Positions 12,161 to 62,644 of a DNA stretch of 64,000 nucleotides are shown piece by piece (position 1 is the stretch's first letter; each line of letters opens with the position of its first letter). Source of the DNA: Bryopsis sp. KO-2023 (Eukaryota > Chlorophyta > Ulvophyceae > Bryopsidales > Bryopsidaceae). A model generated the notes under the pieces. It saw only the letters and a list, made by a program, of their open reading frames with translations. It did not search any database and was not told the DNA's origin. A program made the translations under genes and the position numbers. The DNA is taken from NCBI GenBank assembly GCA_030272585.1, contig BSYQ01000015.1, positions 248,001 through 312,000 on the forward strand. The letters run 5' to 3'.

Positions 12161-13612
12161 GTCAGACACGGCAGCGGATGCAAGTGCGGTTTCCACAGCC
12201 GTGGTGTTGGTATACATCAGGGAGGATGAATGGGACCGGGTGGTGTGCAAAGTGGATAAAAGCGAAATTCCAGAAAACATCCGACACGAACTCGAGGTGT
12301 GCATTACGCATCCACATGAAGCATCCTCTATCAACGTTAGATAATAAACCCTGTGTGGAGCCAGCCCCGGCATTGCTCTTTTGATAATGATGAGTAAAAT
12401 GCTTTCCTCCCTGTGTTGGATGCGCTGGATTTCGAACTGAAAAATCGTATGTTTTGAAGTTTTCAGCTTGGTATTACAAAGCATAGATGTTTGTTTTTCT
12501 CAGGATGAATTGGCAGAGGTCAGCAAAGCAATGGCTGGTCCTGCGGAGGGGCATCTGTATGTCGATGTGAATGTGATAACAGAAGAAGATCTGGAAAGGG
12601 CATCTCTGGATTTGCATTGCCTCGAAGTTATGGCACCGGACCGGAAAGTCTTTTCGTATCGAACGCACAAACACGAATCCATCGGAGATATTCGACGCAA
12701 GGTATTTTAACAAGAAAAACATCCACAGAAATTTGAACCATGAATTTTGTCGCATTAGCATCATCGTGAATCAATTGTAACAAGCGCATGAATCCTTCCC
12801 CACCCACCCACACAAAAAATTCAGTCGAAAAGGAACAAAGATCCAAGTTCTGTAGCTCTTTTTATTTTCTGTCCTGTTGTGGATGAGTTTATTTTTAGTA
12901 ATTAATTAAATGAGTGTGTTTGTGCTGAAGATCCATTTTTTGGTTTGTCTGCCAGCTTTGCAGGAATTTAGGGATATCCCAAGACGCACACAAGCTTTGG
13001 CTTTGGTCGAAACGACAAAATCTGATGAGGCTTTCACTGAAAGCCCCGCCAGAAAGCAGGTTGCTTGACATCAAGACTCACAGGTACGTCATGGTGTGTA
13101 TTGGGTGTTTTTTTTACGCTGTTGCAGTGCCACTGGGAAAAAAATGCCATCGCTTCATATAGCAACTGTGGAGTCCCATGGAAAACCCTCAAGACGTCTT
13201 GTTACAATGCAGTGTGGACGCCATTTTTTTTTTTAAACAAAATTGAAAGTTAAAAAAATATAGTTCAAAGAGACAGAAACAGCTGCCAAGATGAAATCTG
13301 ATTGAATTACTAGGAATTATTGGGTAGAATCATGCGTTTTGGGCATCGTTGGTGCATGCGGATGAAATTTGTGTCCTACTGCTCGGAACTTGATTTTATT
13401 TTTTTTAGCTGGTTTCAGAGATACATCAGGTCACCCTGCCAACAACAAGAACGTTTTGATGACGATTCCCCTGTACTTGCAAGAACCCGACCTTCTGAGC
13501 AGGAACGACGAAAGTATTTTGCTGTTTTTCAAATTTTTCGATCCTTCGAAGGGGACCCTGGAGTTTCTGGGCGAAAGGAGCATTCCAGCTCATGAGGGAG
13601 TGCAGAGGAGAT
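12161..13612 (+). pseudogene. USP7-type ubiquitin carboxyl-terminal hydrolase fragment
   Basis: Exons 12161-12296, 12504-12701, 12956-13083 and 13419-13612 have GT-AG borders and consistent phases. The first carries VLVYIREDEWDRVV and IPENIRHELE, matching the end of the USP7 catalytic domain (human LVYIRES and IPQQL region). The next encode GHLYVDVNVITEEDL and then RNLGISQDAHKLWLW and DESILLFFKFFDPSKGTLEFLG, matching the first ubiquitin-like domain of the USP7 C-terminal tail (HLYMQV, FLKMYDP). The catalytic core upstream and the rest of the tail downstream are missing, so no active deubiquitinase can be made. The homology ends abruptly at a stop at 13610-13612, just before the minus-strand Crypton. 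Either a truncated pseudogene or exons of a chimeric gene. Confidence 0.75.
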
Positions 13613-14015
13613 AGCGGGTTCCGTGCCAGGTGGACTGTACAGACCCCCAGGGTGTAGAGGAGCTTCAGAGTGGCTCATTGGGCTGCTGAACACCAATCGC
13701 CAGTCGAGGAAAAAAGAGCCTTTTACAGGTGTGAACAGTCCCAACTCGATAGAACAAGCAGATCAGAAAAATGAATGTCATCAAACCCCCCAGCAGCCAA
13801 GTGAGACAACAATAAACTGAGCCCCATATGGAATATATGCTTGTGCTGAAATAATCCCTTTGATTTCCACTCAGTCGTGATCCGCCCATGTGAATTTGAT
13901 GTTTCTCCCACGAAACCCCCCAGTTGATCCTTGGTATAAGTAACCACAGCGATACAAGACAAACGTGAAAACGTGGTGGCCTCCCGACCCCACCCCCCAA
14001 AATAGAAAAAAACGT
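13613..14015. other. gap between USP7 fragment and Crypton-A 3' end
   Basis: About 400 bases without a recognised gene. It should contain the 3' untranslated region and terminus of the minus-strand Crypton. No inverted ends seen, as expected for Cryptons. Confidence 0.4.
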
Positions 14016-14990
14016 TCACATTATTTCCCCCTCTGTGAGCTCCTTGATCATGGCGTTTCTAGCATGCGTTATCTCCACGTTTTCAACCGTTTTATCTTCT
14101 GAAAGGATCTTTGCAAATTGGCACACGTAGACCCCGCAATCGTCAGCATTTTTCTGCCTGAACAAAACATCACATAACGTAGTAAAAAAAAAACTAAAAA
14201 TATATAAAATAAAATATAAAATATATTTACCTCTTCTGAGCACAATATGATAATTTGTGCACATTTTCTCCCTACTTACTCTGTGCATCGTCCAATACTG
14301 AAGTCCCAAACAGCATCAGGTCTAGGCTGCCCGCAACTAACGTGCTCATCAGCCATGTAGCGAGCCAAGATTTGGAAGTATTTGTCTGCGTTTGCCATCG
14401 TCTGTAGGAAATAAAAAAAAGTAGAATGTTTAGGCACACGTGATGGTGTTGTTTTTTTTCCCCATGCGTTTTTCAGGAATTCATGCTTGAATTCCTGAAG
14501 GTGAATTCAAGCATGATAAAAAAACCTACCCCAAGAGAGTTGTACAACGTAATCCGTTGCTGTCGTGGGTGGATGGCAAACAGAATCCAATGCGCGTGCA
14601 CACAAACTGGAACAAAAATAATATCACACTCCAGAATCGTGTCTCGTACTTGGCCCCAAGTGTCCAGCTTGCGTTTCGAAGTCCACCTTCGAACGCGTTC
14701 GAAATTATACTGTTCTTCCTCATCACACAATGCGTTCATAAAGTGCGAGTGGAAGAAATGACAAGACAAATGTTTTGTAGGCAATGTTTGGTAGCTGCGA
14801 TCCCGTTTCTGAAGCAATTTCATATAGTCGTAAATGATTGAATCGTTCAACCATTCTCCAGGTCCAAGGCACGAGGGAACGCCAACAGGTGCTGGGGTGG
14901 CATCGGTAGCGGCAGCGGCAGCAAGGACTTTGGCGGGATGGGTGCTTGGAGAGCGAGGGGAGGTCGAGGCGGGTCGCTTCCGGCTTGTGG
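14016..14990 (-). other. Ulp1/SENP (C48) peptidase domain of Crypton-A
   Basis: Three exons in phase with the upstream recombinase exon. Seen: the entry motif EWLNDSIIYDY, the catalytic His-Trp pair in CVHAHWILFAIH, the strand ending ITLYNSLG where the catalytic Asp normally lies in a DS motif (here Asn), and the oxyanion Gln and nucleophile Cys in QKNADDCGVYVC. A low-complexity Ala/Ser/Pro linker (about 40 residues) joins it to the GCR1_C part. Confidence 0.85.
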
Positions 14991-17900
14991 CTGAAGGACA
15001 TAAAGGTGCGTTCAGAAACGCTCAAAGAGAAAAGGAAACCAAATAAATAAATATTTATATTGGGTATATATGTATATTAAATTGAACTGAAAGTAGTGTA
15101 TCCAAGGCTAAAATGCTGAGTGCAGCCCGTTCACAGAAATATATTACGGGCTGACTAATAAATGAACCTCCGTAGCATCACAATGTCCATGTGTAGCTCT
15201 CTGCCTCGATGGCAAACTGAAAACAACTGGGTCGAACATTTGGAAAAATACTGAGTACTTTTGCACGAGTGTGCCCAGAAAAAATCATTGAATAAAATTG
15301 CTTAGCCAACCAAGCAGATCGGGGAAGAAGTCCTGCAAAAAAAGCCTTGAAATGTTTGAAAACCTGCCAGAAAAAAAAAAAAACAGGACGTGCCTATTGT
15401 GCTATCCAAAGACGAAGAACTCCCAGTTTTTTTTTTTAGTTTAAGTTAGAAAAGCCAACCACTGAGAAACTAGCCCCTAGCAAAGCGCTGGAAATAGCCA
15501 GAAAATTGCAAAGAGGTATGTTTCTTTGAAGATACTATCAGAAATGGAGCCTGGTGGATGGATGAAGCAACACAGTTTGCAAAGGAGAGCAAAAGCACCA
15601 AGACGTAGGAAATTTGTCCTTGAGCGGAACCGCGATCGAGGGTTCCCCAACCCAGAGCCGAGTACCCACACAGAAAAATGGGAGAAATACAGACACTGCA
15701 GAGAAAGAGAAAGTAATGACAGCGAGGTAATCTGTGGAGGGTCCTGTTTCCAACTCCTTCTCGCACAGAATGGGCACCCCGGATGTGCCCCGGAGAAGGA
15801 AAGGACCCCAGGAAAAAACCCGGTTCCTTCACTTTATTCCAGCCAAGGAACAACAGTCCCGAAGCGACGTGATGCATTGTATTTCCGCAGCGAATGATTT
15901 CCCGTGCCGGGCAGGCCACGGAACCAACAGAATAGTTGGGCACCAAATAATTGATAGATTATTAGCAAGGATCATTCTGTTTATAATCAGTAGGAGGGGA
16001 GGAGATCCACGCACCTGGTGAGGATGGTATGACCGCCATTTGCCTGGGTACAGCCCTGGATCCCTGCACCCTCAAATCAAAAAATTTCGAGCACGTGACC
16101 TGCCGCTGCCTCTCCTTTGCCAACATCGCTCTGTCCTCCTCGATAGCTGCGATCGCTTCCACGTGATCATGCCCGCCCTCCATCTGTGTCTGAATGTACT
16201 GAATAAATTGTGCATACTTCATAATTTTCTTATTCAAACTCGATGATGAATGTTTTGGAACTTTCTTTTCCAATCGCAATTTCTCCGCATCCCGAATCGC
16301 TATGCTGTTCTGAGCCCCATGATACCACTCCTCCCAGATTCCAGCCACGGTGAGGGTCGGATTGCCAAGATCCAAGAGGGAATTAATTGGGTACAATTCT
16401 GTGGCTTCCGGGATAGAAGGTTCCGGTGGAGAGGACTCCGAATCTTTCAAACCAGCCAATTTCTGGACAGCCTTAACCAACCCGTTAAGGCTATCCTGAA
16501 TGCTCCTCTGAGCAATTCGGAGGGCCTTATGTTCGTTCAACAAAACATCGATGTTCGGCATGTTGGAGCCCTCGGGAATTGTTTGCGATGCAACCTCTTG
16601 CTGGAGCAAAACCCAACGCATGAATGCGGCCTTGTTCTCACGAATAATCTGAATGGAGAAGATCGGATGTTCTGGCTCGATTTCGTATAGAAAGGGTAAA
16701 TCCTGCCAAAACACGCACCGCAAGTGCCTCAAACAGTCGCTTGCATTGCGAGAGGCGGTATCGGACGCGAAGCTGCCTCGCAACGAAGCTTTCTGTGGGA
16801 AAACAAGAAAGCATGGCTCAGAAAATATCTCGATGTAGACATGCATGTTTGGTATCGACTGCGGTTGCACACAAGATGATATTTCTGTATTATTTCTTGG
16901 TGAAAACAACATTTCCAGGTCAGACCAAGAGATCGAGGCCAAGTAATAGCATAAAAAAAATCCCAAGCAAGCACAAGTAGCATCTGAAATAATGCACACG
17001 TACGTGTGCAATTTTTTTCTTGAATTCTTCGTCATCGAGCTTCGGCCACAAACTCAAGGCCATGCGCTTGATTCCCTCGTCGGCGCATGTGGTTGGATCC
17101 ACCTGGGACCTAGATTATGGCAGCAAATCTTTTAGGACAGCCTTTGGTGATAGTAGCAAATGTTCAAGTCAGATATTTCAACATTGTACCGTGGTATGAA
17201 ATATTTTTCCTCGTTCCGAAAACCTCCTCCTGTAGCGATATCTTTAGGTTCCCTCTTTTTGGAGTAGACTTGCGTGTCAGTGGCCCTCTCCCACAACCCA
17301 AATGCTCGCACCGCTTCCCTGGACATCCCCGCATCACGGGCTTGAATGGAGCCGTCTCGTCTGTCGGAGTGCAAGACCTTTGCACCGCTAGTGTCCGTGG
17401 CCAACAGCATGTCCAGTTTCTGCCTTGAGGCTGTGCTTTTGTCCACCATTTGGGTGGGTTTGTTGTAGGGAGAAAATACTTTTACTCCGTACCTAGCAAA
17501 AATATTAACGAAATTTAACATTTACTATTTACGGATATGAAAAGGTTGGTTGTTTTTCTACTTCATGGATCAAGACAAATTTCAGGGCTGGTGTTTTGGT
17601 CCCCTCACTAAACTGGGTGATTGCACTCTAATAAAAGTTTTTTATCTTTTTTTTTTTTCTGACTGATTAAAGGGAGTAAATAAATAGTAAAAAATAGAAT
17701 ATAAAAGTAAAAATATACAGCAATAGAATAGAAATAAAAAATAATTCATACCAATTTGTTTTTTCTTTCTCCATGTCCCAGAAAGGTTCACCAAGGTACT
17801 CCGTTCGGCACGCCAAATGAACAGCCAAAGCGCCTTGTCCACACTGATAGACGCCTTTGTGGCGGGGTAGGCACTTCCAGTCCTCTTCAGAACTATCGGC

Positions 17901-20900
17901 ATTCGTTTTATGGATGCCTTGTACGATATAAATTGTTGTCATTGTTCCTACCCCTCCGAAATCAGAGAGTTGGTGAATGAAGAGGTCACATAGCTCCCAA
18001 CGGCGAGAATCCGCAAAGCGTGACACTAGACAAGTAAATTGAAAAAAAATAAATTAAAATAAAAAGTATTGAACACAAAATAAAATAGGGAATACAATCG
18101 TGAATGGGGCAGGTGTAGGTGTTCGCTTGTTGCGAAGAATGAATGAATAAATAAGATCAAATTAAGATAAGCTCTTAAGAATTCTTTTTCTCTCTTTTTT
18201 CCGAGTCGTTTTAGGTGGTCCCATCGATGTGAGCTGCATCTCAAACGGGGGCCCTGCTCTTTCTTTCGTTGATGTATTTCTGTACATCGTCCCCGCAGTC
18301 CGAGCAAAATACTTCAGCAGCAAATTCTTTATATTCGTCCCTACTAATGCAAAGTTCTTGCAAATATTGTGCATGAATTGGTTAGGGACCGTCTCGTCCC
18401 CCCGTCAGAATTTCAGGTGTGTTTTCTTCGTCAAATACTTTCTTTAGAAAAGCTGAGAAAAAAAAATAAACGATGAACAATGTTTTCCATGACCTCCTAT
18501 TCAGAAATTTGCAGGTGCTGAAAATTAAAAAAAAACAGAAACACACTCACTTGAAACTGTATTCACCAATGTCATCGCGCGATTACGGACTGCGGTGACA
18601 ACGGAACGTTTAGGTGCCTGGGTCTTTAGGTAAAAGTTGCCCTGTTTTTCCTTGTAGTTGTCTCCCCCCCTATTTAAAGGAGGGGGTACATTTCTTTGCC
18701 TGTCAAGCAAAATTGCGCGCTGAGCCTGTTTTTCCCCGCCCAAAATGTTGTCTTTAAATATGCGAACATCAGGATCATCAAGCAATGGTGTGAACTCTTG
18801 TTTTCTTCCCAAAAGCTGGTATTGTGTCTACAGAAAAACAACAACAACAACAAATATTAGTCTGATGCGACAAATAACTGAAAAGAAATAAAAGAAAAAC
18901 AGCAGGGAATAAAAACATTGAATATTAAAATTAAAAAAAATTAATTAATTAATTAAATGAACTGATTTCTGTAAGCAAACATCTGCACCAGTATCCGTTG
19001 TGCAAATTTGTGTTTTGTAAAACTTACTTTTTGTAGTGCCCCGAGGGCGGAAAACCATTTGTGACAATTTCCTGATGATAAGTGTTTCCTGTTTTCAGAT
19101 GCGTTTCGGAAGATCGATTTTGGATTCGCCTTGCCCCGAAGAATGTCCACAAAGAGAGGGGGACTTGGCAGCCGTTGAATCTCATCTCGGGCGACGCATT
19201 CCATGAAGAGGAGAGTCAGGTCAGGTGTGATCAAAAGAGGTTCTTCCTCGAGACCAATGGGTCCAAAATCACACGCGTACCACAACTGAAATTTTCAGAA
19301 AGCCAGAGTTACGAGAATTAAAAGCTCATTCACTTCTACTCTTGTGTATTCACCGACCTGATGTATTTATATATTGTGATTTCTGGAAAAAACAAAAAGA
19401 AAAAATATTTCAGCTGAAATAAATAAAATGTTACAGCTCTGCCACATAAAAAGTAAATAAATAAAACAAATTACAAAGGAAAATACGTAAAGAAACAAAC
19501 ATTTCCAGTTGAAATTCAGCTTACAAGAAAAGCATTCATCATTGAGTAGGCGCTGACTGATCTCTCCCGCTTGCCGGCGTTGCGCACCCACGGTTGTACC
19601 ATTTGGTGCAGCCGTAGATTCTCCGCTCGATCGCCCCCCCAAAAGTCGGGGGGGAGGCCATAAAACATCAGCAACTCCCGCCCGGCGTCAGCAAGGCCCT
19701 CCTTCGCCTCATACGCTTTAATGAAGTTATCAATTGTGGCGAGGAATCTATACCAAAAATTTAATAACAGGCCAGTGTTGTAGTTCACTATGAGTTTGTT
19801 TGTTTGTGTTCTTCCCACACATTCAGCAATAATTTGAGGCTTACATATGGTCCGGGTTTCTTTTTCTTCTGTGGTTTGCTTTGATCCAAGCAACAGAAAG
19901 GTTTTCAACTACTTTCAACGATGTGTTATCCTTTCAAATGAAATGCACACGACAACCAGGGAACCAGGTGTTATAAAAGCATGAGAACATCGTGTGTATT
20001 AGTGTGCTCTGGATGCAGAGTAGGCAAATTATTAAGGGGAAATCACTGAGATTATCTCGCACCGTCGACCATTGGAGTCGGCTTGCTCAGTTTCGTTGCT
20101 CCCCAAAATAGGCCATTCTGTGTCATCCTCATCGGAGAGTGGAGTGGTGACAGCCGAAAGAGGTGCATCGGCAGTGGCAGCAGTCTGGGGAGCATGGGCA
20201 AAGCCACCGGTTGGAGTCGTGGCACCCGGAACAGGAGCAGGGGCAGTAGTCTGGGGAGCATGGGCAAAGCCACCGGCTGGAGTCGTGGCACCCGGAACAG
20301 GAGCAGGGGCAGCAGTCTGGGGAGCATGGGCAAAGCCACCGGCTGGAGTCGTGGCACCCGGAACAGGAGCAGGGGCAGCAGTCTGGGGAGCAGGGGCAAA
20401 GCCACCGGCTGGAGTCGTGGCACCCGGAACAGGAGCAGGGGCAGCAGTCTGGGGAGCAGGGGCAAAGCCACCGGCTGGAGTCGTGGCACCCAACAGAGGT
20501 GCAAAGACGGGGGCAGCAGTCTGAGAAGCAGGAGCAAAGGCGCCAGCTGGAACATGAATAAAAAAAAAAGTCTGATATGGTTTGCTAAATAAATTAATAA
20601 AAACAGTTTGATACAGTTTGCTTTATGTGGTAGGCTTGTTGAACCAAACATCCAAACAAAATTAGTGCCTAAAACAACTGTTGGAGGCAGCAGAAAGAAT
20701 GGAGGGTTAATGCATTCACCCGTTGGAGAGGCGTGAGTGTAGGCGACACCAGCAAGGGGGGCAGCACCAGGGGCGCTGACTGGAGGGGGGTGTAATGCAG
20801 GAAAAGCAAGGGGGGCAGCAGCAAGGGAGGCACCACCAGGGGCACTGACTGGAGGGAGGTGTAACGCAGGAAAAGCAAGGGGGGCAGCAGCATGTGGCGT

Positions 20901-21661
20901 CATGATGACAGACGGTAGAGCCGTAGGCAAGGAGGCGAGAAGAAACTGACCGAGTGCGCAAGCAACCCTGTCCGTAATGGTCGGCTGCAAGTGCTTGGCC
21001 AGGTTTGCCCAAGTGAAACGAGGATTGCAACGGTTCCAGTGATGAACCGTTGCAATCACCCTAGAAAAAAAAAACAAAAAAAAAACACTTTGATAATATA
21101 ATATAATATATATATATATATTTCAGTTTAGGAATCAGTTTAGCTTTTTTTTTATATTATTATTTCAGTTTAGGAATATAATGTAATATAATATAATATC
21201 AGTTTAAGAATCAGTTTAGCTTTTTTTTTATATTATTATTTCAGTTTAGGAATATAATGTAATATATATATATCAGTTTAAGAATCAGTTTAGCTTTTTT
21301 TATTATTATTTCAGTTTAGGAACATAATGTAATATATATATATCAGTTTAAGAATCAGTTTAGCTTTTTTTATTATTATTTCAGTTTAGGAATCAGTTTA
21401 GCTTTTTGATAATATAATATAATGTAATATAATATAATATATATACATATATCAGTTTAAGAATCAGTTTAGCTTTTTAACTTACACGTGAATGTTGAAA
21501 TGATATTTTGCTTTCCCGATGCCCTTTGATATTCTTCTTGCACCATTGGAGTATGCAAATGCCTCCACTTCGTCCTTGGTGAAATGCTCGAGAAGATACT
21601 TTTTAGCTTGCGAGAACGATGTGAAAACCCTGCCAGTTCCACATTTCAAAATAAGAACCAT
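14016..21661 (-). CDS. Crypton recombinase - GCR1_C - Ulp1 fusion protein
   Basis: Exons (5' to 3'): 21661-21486, 21060-20720, 20546-20063, 19747-19525, 19285-19029, 18828-18553, 18452-about 18247, 18025-17752, 17492-17190, 17109-17004, 16792-16015, 14990-14530, 14401-14280, 14157-14016. All have canonical splice sites and matching phases except the exon 7/8 border; total about 1,380 residues. Order: N-terminal region with a Pro/Ala repeat; recombinase with PRHKGVYQCGQGALAVHL, LHSDRRDG (H-x-x-R, about 787) and GLWERATDTQVY (Trp; Tyr about 822); GCR1_C with TLTVAGIWEEWYHG (about 1035); Ulp1/C48 protease with GEWLNDSII, CVHAHW and QKNADDCGVYVCQFA (Cys about 1343). The expected role is DNA strand exchange for transposition, with the protease removing SUMO or similar modifiers or processing the protein (inference). 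Exon 7 has an in-frame TAA (18384-18382). The start could lie further upstream, since the first exon is open to 21868. Confidence 0.8.
14475..14519. repeat. hairpin in intron
   Basis: TCATGCTTGAATTC and its exact inverse GAATTCAAGCATGA are separated by 8 bases. Near the 5' end of the intron between the first two Ulp1 exons (minus strand). Confidence 0.7.
14991..16014 (-). other. 1-kb intron joining GCR1_C and Ulp1 parts
   Basis: The donor GTGCG after 16015 and the acceptor TTCAG before 14990 are canonical, and the exon phases (1 then 2) fit. Nothing recognisable is encoded inside. Confidence 0.6.
16015..16792 (-). other. GCR1_C-like DNA-binding domain exon of Crypton-A
   Basis: A 259-codon exon. 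Its first half continues the recombinase family's C-terminal helical region (CVFWQDLPFLYEIEPEHPIF, comparable to the QD...HPIF block of fungal Crypton proteins). Its second half has LTVAGIWEEWYHG followed by a basic, helical region, the signature of GCR1_C. Confidence 0.7.
17190..18025 (-). other. tyrosine recombinase catalytic core of Crypton-A
   Basis: Two exons (18025-17752, 17492-17190). Seen: KTN...PRHKGVYQCGQGALAVHL, the conserved strand typical of Crypton/Ndc10-like proteins; then LHSDRRDG with His and Arg of the H-x-x-R box, AFGLW, and TQVYSKKREP with the candidate nucleophile Tyr; then GGF and YFIPR, as in the family. Confidence 0.8.
20155..20500. repeat. 66-bp coding minisatellite, about five copies
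   Basis: Lies in exon 3 of the Crypton-A gene. Each unit encodes 22 residues of Pro/Ala/Thr-rich sequence (GATTPAGGFAPAPQTAAPAP). Units are nearly identical, so copy number probably varies between alleles. Confidence 0.9.
21020..21060. repeat. 14-bp stem hairpin at start of Crypton-A exon 2
   Basis: GATTGCAACGGTTC pairs exactly with GAACCGTTGCAATC across a six-base loop, right after the splice acceptor. Confidence 0.75.
21089..21478. repeat. AT-rich tandem repeat, 60-80 bp units
   Basis: About five degenerate units combining CAGTTTAGGAATATAATG, ATATAT runs and AGTTTAGCTTTTT. Fills the first intron of the Crypton-A gene. Confidence 0.8.
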
Positions 21662-21868
21662 GCTGAAAGGAGCATAACCAAGTTCAATTCTTGGTGTGGT
21701 TGCATGAAGAGATTGTGCATTTGAGATTGCAATTGCTATGTTGTTTGTGGAGGACAAAGATGGGGTTGTGGAGAAAGTGTTCTCATCGATTTTTTCAGAC
21801 AAAAACAAGATGTTGTACAGGGGATGTGATAATCCAGGAAGGAGCGATTGTGGTGGCTGAACCCGCAA

Positions 21869-21945
21869 TCAACTGACGTCTATCTCAGACGACCGTTGCA
21901 CCCGCAATCGACTGACGTCTGTCTCAGACGACCTTTGCACCCCAC
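21869..21945. repeat. two-copy direct repeat, 39-bp unit
   Basis: Two units containing ACTGACGTCTGTCTCAGACG with two or three mismatches. Immediately upstream of the open first exon of Crypton-A, so it may belong to the element's promoter or terminus. Confidence 0.75.
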
Positions 21946-22821
21946 CACCCCGCACAAAACAGCAAGCCACCAAGACAAGACAAACGAACAAACTGGAACA
22001 GCAAAGCCTCGACGACAACGAGAACAACGTCTCCGCGGATCGTCGACTGTCGAAAAAGACAGTCGACGTCGGAACTAAAAAACTGAAACAAAAAGCAGGA
22101 ACAAGCCCCTCTCCGACCACCGACTAAGTCACGCAGAAAGCAACGAAAGCGACATCTCTGTAGGAAAGGAAACCACCACAAACAAGCCAACAGCAACGCT
22201 TCCACAACGAGAACGACATTTCCATGCATCGTGCAACGTCGGCTGCGGAGATTAAGCCAGCGACGAAACCGTCGGAACTCGTCGAACAACCAAAGATGAA
22301 ACGAAAAGAGCGCAGCGAAAATTCCACTTGAGCGAGGGAGGAACAAGCCCCTGCTCGCCCACGCGCCCTTTTTTTTCGATGGTTCCTCATTCCTTCGCCC
22401 CGAGCGAACAAAACAACCAGAAACCGCAGCTCCAGCCCGCACAGGAACGTCCGCGGAGCGGGACGTACGGAACAGAAACTCACGGCGAGCTGGACGGGGG
22501 CGTTGCGGCGATAGTCGAGGCCATGTCTGTGAAAATGCGGGGTCCAGTCCTGGAAAACAAGCCGCGACCGCGAAAAGGGACAGCGCGGAGGCGCGGAAAG
22601 ACGGCCGAAAACCCGTGCTTTTTGCGTCTCGCGCGAAAAATTTTTCTCGCTGCCGCGAGGGCGCTTCGCGGGGGTGTCGAATTCTGGTCTCTGGAGCCGA
22701 TTCTGGTCTCCGCAGGCGTTGCGCGAGCGTGAGACTGGGCGAGACTGGTCTCGCCACATCAGCGTAGTACACTGATGGGACGTGCTCCACGTCAGATCGG
22801 CGTTCAAGACTGAACCCCTCA
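21946..22821. other. GC-rich stretch, no supported gene
   Basis: A 288-codon open frame runs on the minus strand (22790-21924), but it is low-complexity and partly made of duplicated DNA. No domain recognised. Confidence 0.35.
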
Positions 22822-32900: not shown

Positions 32901-35900
32901 TTCCTGTCTAATTCCAGCTGCCCTGACCGAAGGGGGTGTGGTGTGTTTACTTCCATGTTTTGTGGTGACTTGATCAGGTTCTAGTTCGGGCACCTCCAGT
33001 TGCGGTTGCTACCACTGCCCCAAGCAATGCCACTGCAATGCCTCGAGCGATGCCGCAAGCAATGCCGCAACGGCTTGGGGCCATTGCCCCAAGCAATGCA
33101 CAGGTAAGTCAACAGATTATCTTTCATCCCCTACTGTAAAACCCATTAGAGAGTCAGTGAGGTTTAATAATGGTCCGATATATAACGACATGTGATGTAA
33201 ACTTCCACATGATGCATGAAGTACCAGCAGGGCTGGTAGGTTTAGCATGGTATTGGAGCACAGGGTGCATACCCTGGGGCTCATAGGAGTAGGGATAGTC
33301 GCTGTAGCCACTGGGTGGCCGTTTTTATGGACTTCATTGGTAGGGGACGAGAGATCCGTTGGATCGACCGGGACAAGGGTTGCGAGCCTTGCTAGTACGT
33401 GGGGGCGAACACATGGAATCTGATGGACACTGCTCACTATACCACTTTGTGTATAGTGAGCACCCCCCTTTATTTGTATGCCAATCCTGGACCTTGGGCT
33501 ACCCTGGAGGGTGTTGATTTCGTCAGAAATCATCAAGCCAAAGGTATCGATTTCGCTAGCATGCATGTGTATGTTGATCAGTGGCTGTGCACGGAGGAAG
33601 GGAAAGATAGGGAGGGTCAGATGGGGTTCTTTAAGGATTGGGTGGACGTCCATCAACAAGCTGCGGAAGAGGATCTACAGATGCCTGTAATTCTGGAAGA
33701 ATTTGGTGGCAAAGTTGGAGACAACAAACGTTATGACATTTTCAAAGAAGCGTTTGATGGTCAGTATGTTTCCCAGCAGCGTGGAGGTAGTTTTGGAGGG
33801 GTTCTCTTCTGGATTCTTTATCATTCTCATTACTTTCCGCTGGACAAATTCGGTGGAGGATATGGCCAATACCTCCCGGCACCCTCCGAGCAATACGAAG
33901 AAGTTGAAATGATGCTGAGAAGCCATTCAGCCAGGACCAAGGAGCTGAATGCTGAGCAAATCGATAGTTTTGTTTGTTTGTTCGAGCCCCCTGTTCCTTC
34001 TGGCAAGGGATGCCATAGCTTGGACGTTTCCATGCATGTCGGTGGGATGCCTTGGGTTTGCTTGCCCGGTGAATCTGGAGATGTCGGATTTTGCTCGAAG
34101 AAAACACAGGCGGAAGACTTATATCAGAATCCTCCAACTGAATGGAAGGGTACCTTCTCTGGATTGGATGCCCCCTTCAATACCATCGAGGTGGTGGTCC
34201 TTGGCGATATCAAGAACTCTGGGAAGGCTCCGGTGAATTTGAAAGGCGGTTGGATAGTTATTCCGTTCTCCCGTGGTGTCCACACCAAGATCGAGGGTGA
34301 ATGGACAAGAATCGAAGATCCTAATGAAAGGTTCGTCCTCCATTGCTGGACTGTGGCTCAGTACGCCAGCGGTGTGGAGTGGAGTCAGAACGGAAACCTG
34401 TGCGGTGATGGAGTGGAGCTCTCTTTCACTGAGCATGCCTGGCCTGAGGGCACCAAATCGGACCGTGGGCTGAAAATCGAGTTCACGAAGAGTGTGATCT
34501 TGCAACCTGGAGACAGCATCCATGGACACGGTGGTGAAGGCAATATCATGATCAACATAAGTGACAACAAATGTCAGGATTCTGAAAGGGAGGAATGCGA
34601 GGAGCACCTGGATGTTTCCAGTATGCAGGCTTGGGCTCGTGGGGAAGATGTAACTCTGAACTACTACAATGTCCCAGCAGCGATGAGCTGTCCGAAATTG
34701 CCAGCCCCACCCACCCCACCCAAGAAGAAATGTTCAATTGTTGCAAAACAAGTAGTTTATGCATAGGTGGGACGGAAGGGAGGAGGTGGGAAATTCAGTG
34801 AGATCTGTTCTTTAGTTGAAAGTCGAGAAAGGGGGTCAGAAAACGATTAGTGATTGCAGTGAAGCCGCTTGGGGCACTACAGTAACACACCATAAATGTG
34901 AACATGAATACTCTTCGGGCACCTCTTGTTTTTTTGAACAAGTTCCGCTTTCGAAGCGGCGAGAAGGCACGCATCGTCGACACTCTGGATGGACGACACC
35001 ACAGCTGCTGCGTTAGCACAGTTACTTCCAGCACTGCAACAGCTTGTCGCCAACCAAGCCCAACCAGGGGCTTCCAGTGCAGCCGTCGACGAAGGGCCGT
35101 CGGCAGACGCCGCCGACCCGGCCGAACGCGAGTTCGACCAAATTTTAAACCGAGTGTGGGGAAACCGTGTGGCGACGCTTTCAGAAGCCGTCATCAGTAA
35201 CGCGGAGGAGGTTCCTAAGTCTCCCAAGAACCCGTGTCCTCGCCCATCCGAGCAGACCAGGTTCGGCACGTGGTTTGATACGGCAGACTCAAAGCTTGGC
35301 CAGCTTATCAACGCCAAGCTAGGTGCCAAGGCAGGTGCTATCGAGTTTGGTTCCTGGGCTCCTGTTTTTTCTTATCTCATTGATATCACGGCGGGACTGA
35401 GCGCTATCGCCCACCGCCAAGGAGGTGTGACGAAAGATTTGTTGGTTCCGTATATTGGAGCTTTGGGACGCGTTCTGGAGCTCGCGTCGAGTTTATTGGA
35501 AGTGCATAAGTTGCAGGCACAGTACGCCTCTTCTGAATTTGCTGTTATTCATAAGCTTGCCAGAGAAAAGATTCGTGGTCAAGGAGCCGAGGACAGTTTT
35601 TCGTCTACACTTATCGCGGAGGTGGTCCAAAACGTCACGGACAAATCCGTGATCGCTTTGACAAAGACTGCAGCTCAGCAGTTTGCGACGAGTGCCAAGG
35701 CCGACTCGACAGGCCCACACCACGGCGCAAAGACGAAACCGAAGTTTAAGAAAGGATCCAAGCCCAGTACTGCACCCACGCAGCCTGTTCCACGGCCTCC
35801 CTCTCAGGACGCTTAACCCCATTTCGGTTTATGTTTCTGTGGGAACGACTGCGCGCCAGTGCAGCGTTTTGGAAACAAATTGGCACCAGTAGCCAGGTGC

Positions 35901-38900
35901 AAAAGTGGATAGAAGAAGGATATCGATTTGAGTGGCGCAAGAAAGCACCACCCCCATTTCACACTCGTGTATATTCGGTAAAGGAAGCGGATTTTTCAGC
36001 GTGGGAAGACTTACGCGAGGAGTACTTACGGATAGGAGCGTTTGAACGCATTCGACCAGAGGATAGCGTCCATTTTTCGTCGGCTTTTTTGATTCCAAAA
36101 AAGACAGGAGGGTGTCGCTTGGTGCTCGACTTGAGAAAGTTTAACACCTTTGTGACCGTGCCCAAAGTACGCCTCGAGAGTCTTCAGCAATGCCGCCGGA
36201 GTCTCGTAAAGCACGGGTTCTTCGTCAGCTGCGACTTGAGCCATGCGTACTACCACCTGGGGATTCATCCGCGCCATCGCCGATTCGTGTGCTTCAAGAT
36301 CCAGCTCCCCGACGGAACCATCGAATGCTTCAGGTTCCTGGCTCTCCCAATGGGTTACAAAGGCGCTCCGCGGGCCTTCACGAAGTTGACTCAGCAGTTG
36401 TTCCGGTTTCTACGCCAGCCCGACAGGACAGCACGTCAGAAGTTGCACCCCCTCCTTCACAAGTGGCGCCAGAAGACTCTCTGGATGATCGCCCTAATTT
36501 ATCTGGACGATTTTCTATTCCAGTTTCACTCCCTTCAGGACGCCAGACTGGGATCCAGATTACTGCGCAACATTTTTCGACTGATGGGACTGCTGGAGCA
36601 CCCCACCAAGTCCGACTGGAAACCCAGTCAGCTGAGGGAACACCTGGGGCTGACCATCGACTCGGACACGAACACTCTTTCCTTACCGCCGTCCAAGATC
36701 TCCAAATTGCGAGCAGTAGCCTCCGAGATTCTGCAGCGATGCTCCAGGTCCAGCAGGTGGATCTCAAAGCGGCGTATGGCGAGCTTTTGCGGACTGGTCG
36801 AGAGCACGAGCATCGTCGTCCCCGAAGCCCGCATGCACATCGCGAAGTGTTACGATTGCATGACTCAGACACCAGGCTGGAATGGCAGGATCAAAATCAG
36901 TCATGGCGCACTCAAGGACGTGCGTTACTTCATTGCGCTGTGCAAACGAATGACGTCAGTTCCTATCAATTTACCGACACAGCAGTTACTGCTGCAGACA
37001 GATGCCTCGCCGACGGGATGGGGAGCGGTTTTGCGCAGGGATATGAACCCTTCAACCAAGGTGATTCCAGTGCAGGGTTTTTGGACTCAGAAGGAACGCG
37101 CTTTCCATATCAACAGGAAGGAGATGCGCGCAGTCCGTTTTGCTTTACAGGCGTTCCAACCGCTCCTGACCCCCGACGCTCAACTGCGCATCCACATCGA
37201 CAACAGGGTTCTGATCGACATCATTCGCAAGGCCTCCTCCAGATCAGTGGATCTCAGGGAGGAGTTTGCCCAGTTGTTGGCACAGACCCTCAGGATGCAC
37301 ATATGGCTGAAGCCGATCTACATCCCATCGAGGATCAATCTACTGGCGGACGCGTTGTCTCGCCAATGCGACAAGGGCGATTGGCGACTATGCCCAACGA
37401 TTTTTCGACAGCTTCAGGAAAAATGGGGACCACTGCAGGTGGATCGATTTGCCGACAAGGACAACACCTTTCTCCCACTGTACAACACTCGGGATCACGA
37501 CCCCCACTCGATGGGGACGGATGCGTTGCAGCAAGATTGGCGGCTTTGGAGAAATTATGCGCATCCGCCCTGGGGGCTGATCCTCCCCGTGCTGGACCTC
37601 TTGTTACACCAACGCCCCTTTTGTGTGATCATTCTCCCAGTGTGGACAGCAGCGCCTTGGTATGCGCACATGATTCGAATCTCAGCCAGGAGATGGCTGT
37701 TACCCAACCTCCCGAACCTCTTCAGCAAGGGCCCTCGAGTTCCCAGCGAGGTGATGCAGATGATCAAGTGGCGCTCCATGGCGCTACTCCTCACACCCAG
37801 CAGCATTCTTCGTCGCGGATAAATGTGGAATTGCAGTTCGATGCATTTTGGTCCGCGCTTTTCGAGGGCACCGACACGCCCCCTTGGTTGGCTTTTGTGA
37901 CAGGCCCGTTATTGCACGGTGTGGACAACCTTTTGGAGCATCTACGGAGTACATGGTTGGCCTGGGTTCAAAGTTCAAGGGATGCAATGCGGATTCGGAT
38001 TCGGAAGTATTTTGTTTTTTGTGCCAGCTACAAGGAGCTGCCTTTTCCTTCGCGGCCAGCAAAGCTCTATGCCTATATCAAATGGCTGCAGAAGGAAGGC
38101 GACATTTCGTACAAAACTGCCCCCCAGTATGTTGCTGCCCTTTCCTCTGTTCAACGGTGGTTAGGGCACGAAAAGTATTCGGTTTTTGATGGGCAGAGCA
38201 AGTTATTGCTGGCGGCGTGGAGGAACCTTCAGGTGGACACCGATTCGGTGGACGAGGTCACTATTTTCACGACCTCGCTCCTTTTTCAGGTGGTTGACCT
38301 GGGTATTCGTACAGCCGACACGGCTTTGCTTCGCTCGGCCACAGCGGTGGTGGTGGCGTACATATTTTTTGGTCGCAGCTCCTCTCACACATGGGTGAGG
38401 GGCAATGATCTTTTGGTGGATTTACAAGGGACATCTATCAGTTTTCGGGAACGGGAATTCAAGGCAAAGCGCAGACGCTCCGGGGTGTATCGTCTGCGCA
38501 CTTTCAAAATATCTACTTGCCCCAGTGTGGGCAACCTTGTGCGAAGGTTTTTGGCTACCAAACGTCAATGTTACGAGACAGCATCTGAGTTCGAGACCCA
38601 GCTGCTTTTTCGACTACCAGGCGAGGCTGCTACACTCACTCGAGCCACCTTCGCCGCGTGGTTTCACAGTGTTTTGGCCGAGTTATCTCTTCCTCCGACA
38701 CTTTCCCAGCTGACGCCACCCTCTTTACGCCGCGGGTCGGTGACCGAGGCGTTCGCAATTGGTGTGGTGACCGAAAAACTCTGTCATTGGGGCGGCTGGT
38801 CCGGTTCCTCAAACACAATCTGGAAGTATATTGATCGTTCCTTTTTACCCTCAGCTGAAGGCCTGTTATTGTTTCAGTGGATGTTGGGCACCCAGACCCA

Positions 38901-53055: not shown

Positions 53056-56000
53056 TCACCAATCATCCACCGCAGGGCAGGCTGTAGTTGCTACAGCACT
53101 TGCAGGAGTTCGGGGATTCTGCCCGTACATGAGGAAAAAGGGAGAGAATCCTGTAGTGGCATTGATGCTGGAGTTGTAAGCAAACTCTGCAGCAGCCAAA
53201 TGCTCTTCCCAATCTGCACCTGCAGGCTCAACATAACTTCGCAGAATCTCCTGCACCGTTCTGTTAGCCCTTTCTGTCTGCCCGTCTGTCTCAGGGTGGT
53301 AACTACTAGACATTGCCAATCTAGTATTTGCTCTCTTCCACAGAGCTCTCCAAAAATTACTAGTGAACCGACTGTCTCTATCCGAAATAATCTCTTGAGG
53401 CAACCCAAAGAAACGAACTACATTCTGAAAGAATAAATCTGCAACACCTGCTGCAGTTACCGTTTGTTTGGTTGGAATCAATCGCAACATCTTACTGAAT
53501 CTGTCCACTACTACAAGCAAATAATCTGACCCCTTCTTGGTTTTAGGCAAAGGGCCTACAAAATCCATTGAAACACTGGACCACCTGCCATCAGGAATAG
53601 GCAGAGGCTGCAGCTTACCCAAAGGCCTCTGATTAGAAGCCTTATTTCTCTGACAGGGGATGCAATTCTTGACATACTTCTGTACTGTGCCTGAAATGCG
53701 TGGCCAGAAATAATGCGCCTGCACTCTGACCAGCGTTTTTCGTCTGCCCAGATGTCCTGCCAATGCTGATTCATGGCAGTCATGGAGCAACTTCTCCCTG
53801 AGCCCGTCTGCATCAGGTATCCACCATTTCCAGGCATTGCAAACCCTTCTCCAAAGCCTCTGACCATCCCACTTTACATGAGCTGGTCTGTAGTTTGCCT
53901 CAATCAATTGCTTGCATAAAGGATCCTTTTGATAGGCCTCCTTGACCTCCTCCTGAAATCCCTGGGTCAGGTCCAATCTTGCTTGTGCATTAACTTCAGG
54001 CTGCTCCTTTGCAGTCTGATGTGTGGCCCTGCTCAGTGCATCTGCCACCACATTATCTCTTCCAGGCCTGTATTTGATCTCAAACTTGAAGGATTGCAAG
54101 GTCTCCATCCACCTTGCCTGCCTCTTGGACAACTGAGGCTGAGTCTGTAGATACTTCAGTGGTGCATGATCAGTGTGCACCACAAATTCCTGAGCATCCA
54201 GATAGTGCCTCCACACCTTGAGTGCATGTACAATGGCCAAGAGCTCCTTCTCATGGGTAGCATAATTCAGTTCTGCAGGTTGCAGTTTCCTGCTTTCATA
54301 GGCCACAGGCTGCTGACCCTGTCCATGGTCCTGTGTAAGGACTGCTCCAATAGCATAGTCTGAAGCATCAGTGGTGACTTCAAACTTCAATCCTGGGTCA
54401 GGCACCAACAACACTGGTGCAGACATCAATGCCTCCTTAATATCCTGCATTGACGCAGCTTCCCTTTCTGTCCATTGCCAGCTTGCTTCCTTCTTCAGCA
54501 AGGCAGTCAATGGCTTAGCCCTGGCAGAGAAGTCCTTGATGAACCTTCTGTAGTAATTTGCCAGGCCAAGGAAGGATCTGAGGTCCTTCACTGACGTTAA
54601 GGGAGGCCAGTCCCTGATGATCTGCACTTTGCTCTGCAACACCTGTATACCTGCAGCACTCACTTCATGCCCCAAAAACTCCACCTGCATCTTGCAGATA
54701 TCACACTTAGTAGCTGAAGCATACAGTTTCTGTTCCCTCAGTCTCTGCAACACTTTCTGCAAGTGAACCTTGTGTTCAGCCCAATTCCTGCTGTAAACCA
54801 AAATGTCATCCAAATAAACTATGCAGAAAATATCCAAGAAATCATGAAGAACATGGTTCATGGTGTTCATAAAGGTGGCAGGGGCATTTGTCAGCCCAAA
54901 AGGAAGAACCACATATTCAAAAAGCCCATATCTAGTGCGGAAGGCCGTCTTTTCTGAATCTGCAGGGTCCAACCGCACTTGATGATAACCTGAGCAGAGA
55001 TCTATTTTACTGAAACAACGAGCTCCCTGAATCTGATCTAGCAACTCCTCAATCCTTGGAATAGGATACCTGTTTTTCACTGTCAGTTTATTCAGTGCCC
55101 TGAAATCGACACACATTCTCAACTTCCCATTTTTCTTTGGAACGAATAAAACTGGTGATCCCCAGGGTGACTTGCTAGGTCTGATAAAACCCTGTTTCAG
55201 CAACTCTGCCAACTGCTTTTTCAGTTCTTCTCTTTCTGCAAAACTAGCCCTGTAAAGTCCCTTCTTTACCGGTTCTGCCCCTTCCACAAGTTCTATCTTG
55301 TGGTTAACACCTCTGTCAGGAGGTAACTCCTGAGGCAGTTCTTCTTTGAACAAATCCTGAAACTCTTTTCTGATTTCTTTTTCCAACTGCAAAGCTTCTC
55401 TTTCTTCCTCTGAGACTGTATCTGCAAAACTTCCTTTTACTGCTTCAGTACTTTCTAATCCATTTATTGCATGCTCAACATCCACTTCTCTCAAATGAAG
55501 TAAATATATAGGTCTGCCCTTGCGAGCAGCCTGTGCGAACTCTGCTGCAGACATCAGATCCAACTCTGCTGTACTGCAATCCTCTACTCTACCAGTCTGC
55601 ATTCTGAGATTGACTGCTCCCTGAGGTGTCTGCAAAACCAACAACTTCTTTTGCCAATCTATGACAGGGTTGTGTTTGCTTAACCAAGACATTCCTAACA
55701 CCAGGTCGTACCTCCCTAGTGTTATGGCATACATCTTTTCCTCTGATACAAACCTGCCCATTTTGACACTGGCCTGCAGCTCTTTTTCTACCTTTTCTGA
55801 GGTTTTACCATCTGCTAACTGCACCTCAGTCAGTACCTCAGCAGCTTCTGTCTGAATGCCATTTTCAAGCAACCAATCTTTTGAAACAAAATTGTCAGTT
55901 GCCCCACTATCTATCAATATTCGAGAAAAACAACCTGCCACAGTTCCTGTGGTCTTCAACATCCCTTGAGTCCCCCCATGGACTCCTCTCAACTTCAAAA

Positions 56001-56670
56001 GTGGGGGTTCATCTAAGCTATGTCCTTGAAAGCAAACTTCATTAGGTCTGCCCAGCTCAGATTCCTCTCTCACTGAAAACGAGTCTGCAGCGTCTGCCCT
56101 CAGATCACTGTCAGCACTCACATGCACAGAAAACTCATGCAGGTCAGGTGTGGCCCCGCCTGGCCCTGCACCTCCTGCCTCAGGGACCTGAGAGGTGGTG
56201 GTTCCACTCGACCGACCAGCCTCCTCATTCCCGGAAACCTCCTTCAAAATTCCTGCAGATGCTACTGCCCCTGCAGCAGCACCCACTAATTCATCCACTG
56301 ACCTACTCGCAGGAGACTCTGCCCCCAGCAGAGTACCCGCCAATTCATCCACTGACCTACTTGCAGGAGACTCTGCCTCCAACAGAGTACCCGCCAATTC
56401 ATCCACTGACCTACTTGCAGGAGACTCTGCCTCCAACAGAGTATCCGCCAATTCATCCACTGACCTACTTGCAGGAGACTCTGCCTCCAACAGAGTACCC
56501 GCCAATTCAACGTTTTCCAAACGACCGACCTTCCCTTTCGGTGTGGCTTCACAAGGCACACCACCCGCCGGGTTCTGCTTCCCTGAAACAGATGCTACCC
56601 TCCCCATGGTAGCCTCCTTGTGTGGGTGGCTACGCCGGCCCTCCCACACTCCTCTTCTGTCCTCCTTCAC
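53056..56670 (-). CDS. pol of chromovirus A: protease, RT, RNase H, integrase
   Basis: The N-terminal part has four copies of an 18-residue repeat (SVDELAGTLLEAESPASR). Then protease LIDSGATDNFVS, RT with FSKIDLCSGYHQVRLDP and CIVYLDDILVYS, RNase H with FEVTTDASDYAIGAVL and DALSRA, integrase zinc finger (GHLGRRKTL, CIPCQRNK) and core (WSSVSMDFVGPLP, ISDRDSRFTSNFW, YHPETDGQTERANRT). In a different frame from gag. Broken about once toward its end. Confidence 0.93.
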   Translation of the reverse strand: MKEDRRGVWEGRRSHPHKEATMGRVASVSGKQNPAGGVPCEATPKGKVGRLENVELAGTLLEAESPASRSVDELADTLLEAESPASRSVDELAGTLLEAESPASRSVDELAGTLLGAESPASRSVDELVGAAAGAVASAGILKEVSGNEEAGRSSGTTTSQVPEAGGAGPGGATPDLHEFSVHVSADSDLRADAADSFSVREESELGRPNEVCFQGHSLDEPPLLKLRGVHGGTQGMLKTTGTVAGCFSRILIDSGATDNFVSKDWLLENGIQTEAAEVLTEVQLADGKTSEKVEKELQASVKMGRFVSEEKMYAITLGRYDLVLGMSWLSKHNPVIDWQKKLLVLQTPQGAVNLRMQTGRVEDCSTAELDLMSAAEFAQAARKGRPIYLLHLREVDVEHAINGLESTEAVKGSFADTVSEEEREALQLEKEIRKEFQDLFKEELPQELPPDRGVNHKIELVEGAEPVKKGLYRASFAEREELKKQLAELLKQGFIRPSKSPWGSPVLFVPKKNGKLRMCVDFRALNKLTVKNRYPIPRIEELLDQIQGARCFSKIDLCSGYHQVRLDPADSEKTAFRTRYGLFEYVVLPFGLTNAPATFMNTMNHVLHDFLDIFCIVYLDDILVYSRNWAEHKVHLQKVLQRLREQKLYASATKCDICKMQVEFLGHEVSAAGIQVLQSKVQIIRDWPPLTSVKDLRSFLGLANYYRRFIKDFSARAKPLTALLKKEASWQWTEREAASMQDIKEALMSAPVLLVPDPGLKFEVTTDASDYAIGAVLTQDHGQGQQPVAYESRKLQPAELNYATHEKELLAIVHALKVWRHYLDAQEFVVHTDHAPLKYLQTQPQLSKRQARWMETLQSFKFEIKYRPGRDNVVADALSRATHQTAKEQPEVNAQARLDLTQGFQEEVKEAYQKDPLCKQLIEANYRPAHVKWDGQRLWRRVCNAWKWWIPDADGLREKLLHDCHESALAGHLGRRKTLVRVQAHYFWPRISGTVQKYVKNCIPCQRNKASNQRPLGKLQPLPIPDGRWSSVSMDFVGPLPKTKKGSDYLLVVVDRFSKMLRLIPTKQTVTAAGVADLFFQNVVRFFGLPQEIISDRDSRFTSNFWRALWKRANTRLAMSSSYHPETDGQTERANRTVQEILRSYVEPAGADWEEHLAAAEFAYNSSINATTGFSPFFLMYGQNPRTPASAVATTACPAVDDW

Positions 56671-56711
56671 CTTTTCATTCCGGCCAAGGGACTCTCCAGC
56701 CCTTGACCTCT

Positions 56712-57905
56712 TTAGTTTTCCGAGCAGTCAGCGGCGAAGTGGCCTTTCTTGCCACACCTGTAACAATCAACATGGGCTGCTGATCTGCCCATATCCATTC
56801 TGCTCCTCCTGTCTGAGGAACCCTCTCCAGTTCCTCCTCGTTTCTGCCTCTGGTGTCTGCGAGGACTGCCACTGCGTCCTCTGCTTTTACTGCGACTGTA
56901 ACTGCGATCACCACCGCGACTGCCGCTGCGACCTCTACTGCCGCTGCGACCTTCCCTGACATCAAACCCCACGCGGTTACGCTGGAGGCCATCAACCTCC
57001 ATACGATCACCTAAGTGTGGTGCCTGACGCTGCGGGTGGTACCTGTCGCGTTCGGTGTTATACCTTCCTCGACTGCTACTGCGACCTCTGCTCTGGGATC
57101 TGCCTCTGCTGAACGACCTGCCACGACTCTTCGATCTGTCCCTGCGCGACCTTGCGCGTCTGCTGCTGGGACTGCGATCTCTGTGGTAGTTTTCAAGAGG
57201 ACCTTCCCAGGTCGCCGCCAGCGCGATCGCTCTTTCGAGGGTGTTGGGATCTTCCATCTCAACCTTCGTCCGCAGACGCTCGTGCAGACCCTCCATGAAC
57301 CTGAAGAGCTTTTCCCCAGGATTGCTGTCATGAATCTGCAGTGTGAGCCTGCGAAACTTGTGTACATACTCAGCAACCGAAAGTCGCCCCTGACGCAAAC
57401 GAGACCACTCTCTTCTGAAGTCACGGTTCTCGTTCACCTTGCCAAACTCCTGTCTCAGCTGTTCAACCAAAGCAACAAGTGACTGAGGCAGTTCCTGGTG
57501 GCCTGCAAGAGCAGCCTCATATCTGCCTCTCCACCAAGTACCTGCAGCTCCCCTGAGTGATCCTGCAGCCACTAAAACCTGCTGCTCTACATCCCTTGTG
57601 CCTGTCACATCAAAATATGTCTGTAACTGCACCTGCCACTCATTCAGTGGGATATCACCAGGGTCACCATACCAAGCATCTGGTGTCTTTGCTCTGGCCT
57701 TGCCCAGTGCTGCTGGAGCCTGTGGCTGAGGCAACCTTTCTGCCACAGCCTGCTGCACAACATCATTCATCTGATGGTTGACATTTGCAGCAACATTCCT
57801 CAGGTGAAGGACTTCATTCTGCAGATCTGTTATCATCTGCCTCATTGCCTGCAGATCGAAAGGATCTGGGGCTGGTACCCCCATCTGCTCCTCCCCGCCT
57901 GACAT
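56712..57905 (-). CDS. gag of chromovirus A (397 aa)
   Basis: Retrotransposon gag core (about residues 80-230: TPDAWYGDPGDIPLNEWQ, GAAGTWWRGRYEAAL, LSVAEYVHKFRRL), then a long Ser/Arg-repeat region (SRGRS repeats) and a CCHC zinc knuckle CYRCGKKGHFAADC at the end. Builds the particle and binds RNA. Confidence 0.92.
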   Translation of the reverse strand: MSGGEEQMGVPAPDPFDLQAMRQMITDLQNEVLHLRNVAANVNHQMNDVVQQAVAERLPQPQAPAALGKARAKTPDAWYGDPGDIPLNEWQVQLQTYFDVTGTRDVEQQVLVAAGSLRGAAGTWWRGRYEAALAGHQELPQSLVALVEQLRQEFGKVNENRDFRREWSRLRQGRLSVAEYVHKFRRLTLQIHDSNPGEKLFRFMEGLHERLRTKVEMEDPNTLERAIALAATWEGPLENYHRDRSPSSRRARSRRDRSKSRGRSFSRGRSQSRGRSSSRGRYNTERDRYHPQRQAPHLGDRMEVDGLQRNRVGFDVREGRSGSRGRSGSRGGDRSYSRSKSRGRSGSPRRHQRQKRGGTGEGSSDRRSRMDMGRSAAHVDCYRCGKKGHFAADCSEN

Positions 57906-58275
57906 TCCTTCTGCGCCTCAGCTCGTTCTGCTCACGCCTCTCCTGCGTTGCCCTCTGCAATCTGTAGATAGGACACTGAGGATCAGAACAGTCGTAGTAT
58001 CTGATGACGTTACCACTGCGTTCTGCCTTTCTGTGGCCGTGAGGAGGCGCTCTGAGAGGAGGTGGTGGCACCACTGCCAACGGGTGTCTCACTGGACCCA
58101 GAACCTGCACCGGTCTGGGTAACCTGTAAGGAGCTGGAACCCAGTCCCCTGCGAAAGTAAACAGATCAGGTGGCAGGTTTCCCTGAAACTCTGCCTCACC
58201 CTGAATCACAGTTTCCTCGTCTGTTTCTGCCTCACTTTCGCTACTTCTCACTGCTACAGGTCTACCAAAACTCAT
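57814..58275 (-). CDS. pre-gag ORF 2 of chromovirus A (153 aa)
   Basis: Acidic start (SSESEAETDEETV), Pro-rich middle, then VIRYYDCSDPQCPIYRLQRA (C-x4-C) and a basic Arg-rich tail. Its 3' end overlaps the gag start by 92 bases in another frame. Conserved in chromovirus B (61046-61507). Looks like a tandem paralogue of ORF 1. Function unknown. Confidence 0.65.
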   Translation of the reverse strand: MSFGRPVAVRSSESEAETDEETVIQGEAEFQGNLPPDLFTFAGDWVPAPYRLPRPVQVLGPVRHPLAVVPPPPLRAPPHGHRKAERSGNVIRYYDCSDPQCPIYRLQRATQERREQNELRRRRNVRRGGADGGTSPRSFRSAGNEADDNRSAE

Positions 58276-62609: not shown

Positions 62610-62644
62610 AGAGGTCAAGGGCTGGAGAGTCCCTTGGCCGGAAT

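Follow-up and report, generated by a model that had tools for sequence, protein, structure and literature searches.

The 64,000-nucleotide window analysed here, which lies on a 1,602,149-base contig of the giant-celled green alga Bryopsis sp. KO-2023, raises the question of whether a Crypton-type tyrosine recombinase, a GCR1_C domain and an Ulp1 protease found along one strand belong to a single transposon protein and, if so, where the protease originated and what it contributes. Both the locus itself (14016..21661, minus strand) and its relatives in the 91-Mb assembly of 28 contigs, to which the genome searches extended, point to the same answer. This is very probably a CryptonF-like transposon gene encoding a recombinase, an NDC10_II/GCR1_C part and a C-terminal SENP1-type protease as one predicted protein.

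The splice model for the minus strand from 21661 to 14016 describes one gene of 13 exons and 12 GT-AG introns, starting with an ATG at 21661 and comprising 1304 codons and a stop, with its domains assigned by Pfam. The N-terminal exons are A (21661-21486), A2 (21060-20750) and A3 (20546-20063), the last being a Pro/Ala-rich linker, followed by B (19747-19525), C (19285-19028) and D (18827-18551). Exons E (18025-17752) and F (17492-17190) hold the recombinase core, with its R, K, H-x-x-R, W and Y boxes, and are followed by exon G (17109-17004) and exon H (16792-16015), in which NDC10_II ends and GCR1_C is found. Beyond the intron at 14991..16014, exon I (14990-14530) encodes a linker and the first part of Ulp1, with its HW motif and LYNSLG, while exons J (14401-14280) and K (14157-14016) encode the remainder, including QKNADDCG, and the stop codon. 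When joined, these exons have no internal stop over 3915 nucleotides, against 29 and 54 stops in the other two frames, and none of 1000 base shuffles of the joined exons stayed open. An open frame arising by chance was ruled out on these counts and shuffles, together with the Pfam domains. The linker in exon A3 contains a tandem repeat (20171-20491) of 4.9 copies of a 66-bp unit, 98% alike, that encodes a Pro/Ala-rich repeat.

Of the three profiles that the initial annotation had associated with this protein, Peptidase_C48 matched strongly in a Pfam scan of the spliced product (E 2.2e-25, residues 1109-1289, profile positions 1-195 of 217), GCR1_C matched weakly and below its cut-off, and DUF3504 was not among the hits. 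It was therefore discarded as a name for the recombinase, which instead matched NDC10_II (E 1.6e-11, residues 568-855), presumably a tyrosine-recombinase fold. The motifs originally noticed were all located on the minus strand: those of the recombinase start at model residues 578 (SRFADSRRW), 613 (GIHKTN), 707 (VLHSDRR), 731 (AFGLW) and 742 (QVYSKK), that of GCR1_C at 955 (GIWEEWYHG), and those of Ulp1 at 1109 (EWLND), 1195 (HAHWI), 1212 (LYNSLG) and 1259 (QKNADDCG). Each of the recombinase boxes is present in the window, and they are conserved among its relatives where the aligned rows cover them. Pfam scans covering the spliced protein and nine pieces of the region revealed no reverse transcriptase domain, setting the gene apart from DIRS-like elements. 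When 200 residues of the protease part were compared with known structures, residues 5-193 matched SENP1 (5.5e-17), and this part is predicted to be a complete SENP1-like catalytic domain.

Whether these parts form one protein depends on the join between GCR1_C and Ulp1. The exon ending at 16015 joins that starting at 14990 in phase 1 across a canonical GT-AG intron of 1024 nucleotides, carrying the frame as the initial annotation had described. This is the longest of the 12 introns in the model, and some CryptonS elements are described as encoding an additional C48 protein (PMC3212892), both of which would favour a recombinase-GCR1_C gene lying next to a separate Ulp1 gene. However, the related copies C10 and C1 have an intron of only 82 nucleotides at the same place and in the same phase, and the window's intron has been enlarged by a dispersed repeat (about 15042-15421), which accounts for 31 of the 40 DNA matches scored for the region. 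Furthermore, the NCBI protein BSKO_13670, from Bryopsis sp. KO-2023, likewise joins the recombinase to the protease. Its agreement with the model covers 977 of its 1016 residues, divided among five blocks, and the block spanning model residues 669-1177 crosses the join. An arrangement of two genes is therefore highly improbable, and was rejected on the short C10 intron. Hence the central proposal of the initial annotation, a single gene in which a Crypton-type recombinase, GCR1_C and a C-terminal Ulp1 are connected across this intron, is upheld by the splice model, by BSKO_13670 and by the C10 copy. When read against the window, BSKO_13670 also has an alternative first exon (MASTIAATPPSSSP) at about 22484..22524 on the minus strand, spliced to about 21629.

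The same domain order recurs elsewhere in the genome, in several dispersed copies that are whole or partial, as a search for such copies had been expected to reveal were the fusion genuine. The C10 copy (L028) is whole, with recombinase, GCR1_C and Ulp1 in order over 1207 residues without a stop, and is 35% identical to the window over the aligned part. The C5 copy has the recombinase followed by Ulp1, with nested insertions, most of GCR1_C missing and one stop in Ulp1; the C1 copy has lost its recombinase and kept GCR1_C with a complete Ulp1. From this distribution we infer that the fused order is older than the split between the window and C10 lineages. Searching the genome with the recombinase gave 32 matches at 16 places, and the surroundings of seven of these were read, the fetched DNA reaching about 3 to 7 kb downstream. 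Three of the seven, namely the window, C10 and C5, have Ulp1 after the recombinase on the same strand. A tree groups the window with C10 and C5, with a support of only 0.48 (the L034 row was empty and omitted). Beyond Bryopsis, searches with the whole protein, with a two-sequence alignment and with the Ulp1 region matched only BSKO_13670 (8000, 7024 and 102 candidates scored, respectively), although they require shared 5-residue words, so that absence from other organisms is not established by them; an alignment-based scan of IMG/VR gave 34 pattern matches, none of them a relative.

Several observations weigh against this reading of the locus. The open frame is a weaker test than it appears, because the splice sites were picked by eye with the frame in view; the independent support for the model comes from the Pfam domains and the other genomic copies. 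The GCR1_C match is sub-threshold (E 0.006, 17.3 bits where 23 is required), as it was in all three proteins scanned, L028 and L029 included (17.3, 16.9 and 17.5 bits), despite the region being placed downstream of the recombinase with its motif present. BSKO_13670 lacks the catalytic R and K of the recombinase, as it passes over exons D and E, and also the catalytic His of the protease, as the corresponding part of exon I is left out. Its gene model is probably wrong at these exons, through an annotation error, since counterparts of the missing stretches are encoded in C10; an alternative transcript might also account for the skipping. The window's Ulp1 retains its catalytic His, Gln and Cys, and has Asn in place of the Asp of the triad, which is Asp in C1. 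Neither end of the window element was found, and the 3' end of the C10 and C1 copies was not reached. Finally, Ulp1 was not found within about 3-7 kb downstream at four of the seven recombinase loci read (L030, L047, L048/L049 and L050), the only trace being a weak 33-residue match on the opposite strand at L049 (E 0.006). The initial annotation had regarded recombinase copies without a neighbouring Ulp1 as evidence against the fusion; these four are of that kind, and as equally or more distant relatives they leave it standing. Absence from the whole-genome C48 search is itself weak evidence, as this search missed the broken Ulp1 of C5. BSKO_13670 additionally translates part of exon E in a different frame.

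A cellular SENP1-type gene, introns included, is the probable source of the protease itself. The alga has such a gene, L032, with SENP1 as its best PDB match (9e-29), which appears to be an ordinary host gene, judging by its domain and by the absence of adjacent recombinase matches. The window, C1 and L032 have two introns in common, one in phase 0 immediately following the Asp/Asn-Ser-Leu motif and one in phase 2 directly ahead of the catalytic Gln, and L032 contains an additional intron, absent from the other two. The phase-0 intron falls in alignment column 203 for the window and 202 for C1 and L032, an offset put down to an alignment gap. That two intron positions and phases are shared with L032 therefore argues for the capture of an intron-bearing cellular gene. 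The identities fit less readily with a single simple capture, as the window's Ulp1 is 40.9% identical to L032 and 29.8% identical to C1; either unequal rates or later exchange with the host gene would explain this difference. An origin of the C1-type Ulp1 (L029) from the intronless L039, which we take to be SENP8-like, was considered and rejected, because both of these introns recur in L029, as they do in L032, and because L029 was matched best in the PDB by SENP5 (1.9e-13) and SENP1, with SENP8 at 0.014. Sequence identity does not separate the two candidates (26.9% to L039, 26.3% to L032).

Divergence differs between the two halves of the element. Between C10 and C5, the recombinase side (exons 3-7, 527 codons) has a synonymous divergence (dS) of 0.20 and a ratio of non-synonymous to synonymous divergence (dN/dS) of 0.16. 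Among C10, C1 and C5, Ulp1 has a dS of about 0.015-0.025, with a dN/dS of 0.6-0.8 where computable, from a handful of changes too few to be informative about selection; exons 11-12 have no synonymous change between C10 and C1. The protease half of these copies (L028, L029, L046 and L055), with a dS of about 0.02, is thus far less diverged than the recombinase half, which suggests that copies have exchanged parts.

Two alternative accounts of the window copy each have evidence in their favour. It might be a domesticated host gene, in which a former Crypton transposase has been retained as a DNA-binding SUMO protease. A frame intact across 13 exons would be expected in that case, and a DNA search with 13500-22700 gave no second long copy, only single-exon matches among the 40 scored of 140 candidates: three places for exon D (87-90%), two for exon F (83%) and one for exon A2 (87%). 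Yet these short fragments, the only other representatives seen of the window's own subfamily, look like remnants of other copies, and the fused order recurs in the C10, C5 and C1 elements. All of the recombinase's catalytic residues are also retained, which a DNA-binding gene would not need, making domestication unlikely. Similarly doubtful is the suggestion that Ulp1 travels with the element while contributing nothing to transposition, and is undergoing loss in some lineages, the window's among them. The replacement of the triad Asp by Asn would be consistent with such decay, as would the dN/dS of Ulp1 in the other copies, few as the changes are. So would L030, which retains the recombinase, GCR1_C and an Ala/Pro linker resembling that preceding the window's Ulp1; because the latter two are still present, L030 may have lost its protease. 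Also in favour of the passenger reading are L034 (C3:6594000-6603999) and L035 (C4:4762000-4771999), canonical CryptonF-like loci with NDC10_II, two GCR1_C matches (one below cut-off) and no Ulp1 hit. Within the 10 kb fetched, their long aligned blocks are 99.0-99.5% identical, and the pair appears to be a recent duplication or transposition. However, Ulp1 is open, with its His, Gln and Cys kept, in both the window and C1 despite their low domain identity (29.8%), which is hard to square with a useless domain. A mobile element with the protease fused to its recombinase remains the preferred reading.

Such an element is not without precedent. The initial annotation regarded this combination of Crypton recombinase, GCR1_C and Ulp1 as unseen before, which does not hold: CryptonF elements encode a recombinase and GCR1_C, and a C48 peptidase was described in addition for the oomycete CryptonF-2_PS and its relatives (Kojima & Jurka 2011, PMC3212892). 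Those elements share with the window a tyrosine recombinase, GCR1_C (as stated for CryptonF) and the C48/Ulp1 peptidase. They differ in their oomycete host, and their description, on which rather than on sequence the likeness is based, is silent on whether recombinase and peptidase share one polypeptide. Some CryptonS elements, from oomycetes and a diatom, also combine a tyrosine recombinase with a C48 peptidase, but are described as having no GCR1_C and the peptidase as an additional protein (PMC3212892). Ulp1 domains are indeed reported on transposases of unrelated classes, comprising Ginger1, Mutator-like and Crypton elements (PMC3212892, PMC2836005). Some Ginger1 members have a C-terminal Ulp1 on the transposase, but this is a DDE enzyme of the Gypsy-integrase type, in elements described with terminal inverted repeats and without this kind of recombinase (PMC2836005). 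Therefore the kind is already known, and Bryopsis provides a new example in what looks like a new lineage, no such element from a green alga having been reported in the literature surveyed by title and abstract opening, a scope excluding subscription papers and Repbase. What appears to be new is the green-algal case, the single spliced polyprotein and the two intron positions shared with a host SENP1-type gene, constituting better evidence of both the fusion and a cellular origin. These introns bear on the relation of Crypton peptidases to cellular ones, for which the 2011 study called for more data (PMC3212892).

The role of the protease can be considered through the likely mode of action of the element. 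By analogy with known Cryptons, the recombinase would excise the element and recombine it into a short target, while GCR1_C would assist in holding the DNA. The fused protease might then deconjugate SUMO from the recombinase itself or from target-site host proteins, blunting SUMO-dependent restriction; this is the least certain part of the scheme, a reasonable possibility that falls short of being probable. A parallel is offered by Flp, which is also a tyrosine recombinase, belongs to a selfish element of the nucleus and is controlled by SUMO, although the likeness is in mode of action rather than descent, and the texts consulted mention no protease encoded by its element (PMC6594588, PMC7652418). 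SUMO reduces the DNA binding of Flp and leads to its degradation (PMC6594588), and deficient SUMO modification of Flp raises the copy number of its plasmid (PMC7652418). Ulp1 mutants also over-amplify the plasmid (PMC7652418), therefore the relation between SUMO and Flp is not one-way. Counting against the recombinase as the substrate, none of the three proteins scanned, the window's and L028 included, contains a strict SUMO consensus site, and host proteins are therefore an equally likely target. A different role has been proposed in Ginger1, in which Ulp1 or OTU domains would activate repair factors after or during transposition (PMC2836005). The fullest version of the scheme, in which Bryopsis Cryptons captured an intron-bearing cellular SENP1-type gene, joined it to the recombinase separately from the oomycete elements, and now employ it to remove SUMO from the recombination complex, is tentative, and as a whole somewhat unlikely. 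Were it true, the protease would represent an element-encoded answer to SUMO control of the kind known for Flp. The functions of transposase Ulp1 domains have so far been proposed (PMC2836005), and a spliced fusion accompanied by relatives lacking either part in the same genome offers material for a direct test.

The limits of the element, where Cryptons would be expected to have short direct repeats and no inverted ones, were sought in the other copies. The shared similarity of C10 and C1 begins at C10:5070832 and C1:9097752, marking their 5' limits. C1:9088108 was considered as a 3' end and rejected, since the similarity of C10 and C6 continues past it and the match stops at this point in C5 alone; a candidate 4-bp direct repeat at C1 was discarded for the same reason. 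A 392-bp stretch 3' of the C1 element has 96-97% matches at C6:3739371, C4:5802678, C4:5827957, C4:5853237 and C5:4861201, the three on C4 being spaced about 25 kb apart, and 2 kb of the C6 one having been read. The C10 Crypton is cut in an Ulp1 exon by an insertion of approximately 10.7 kb (C10:5051082 to 5061742; L028:2743, L055). This insertion, bounded by TG..CA and flanked on both sides by the 5-bp repeat CCTTG, looks like a long terminal repeat-type element. The 5' flank of this copy of the Crypton is near a cluster of five tRNA genes, and the sequence beside its start, which was not called by ARAGORN, has what we take to be a resemblance to part of a tRNA gene.

Other putative mobile elements lie elsewhere in the window. 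On the plus strand, 35750-37819 encodes reverse transcriptase and RNase H domains, together with a weak, sub-threshold match to Dam methylase in the same frame, and is possibly a DIRS-like element. Two near-identical gag open reading frames lie in opposite orientations at 53059-57917 (minus strand) and 61404-64000 (plus strand), the former being adjoined by a Ty3-like gag-pol set of gag, protease, reverse transcriptase, RNase H and integrase.

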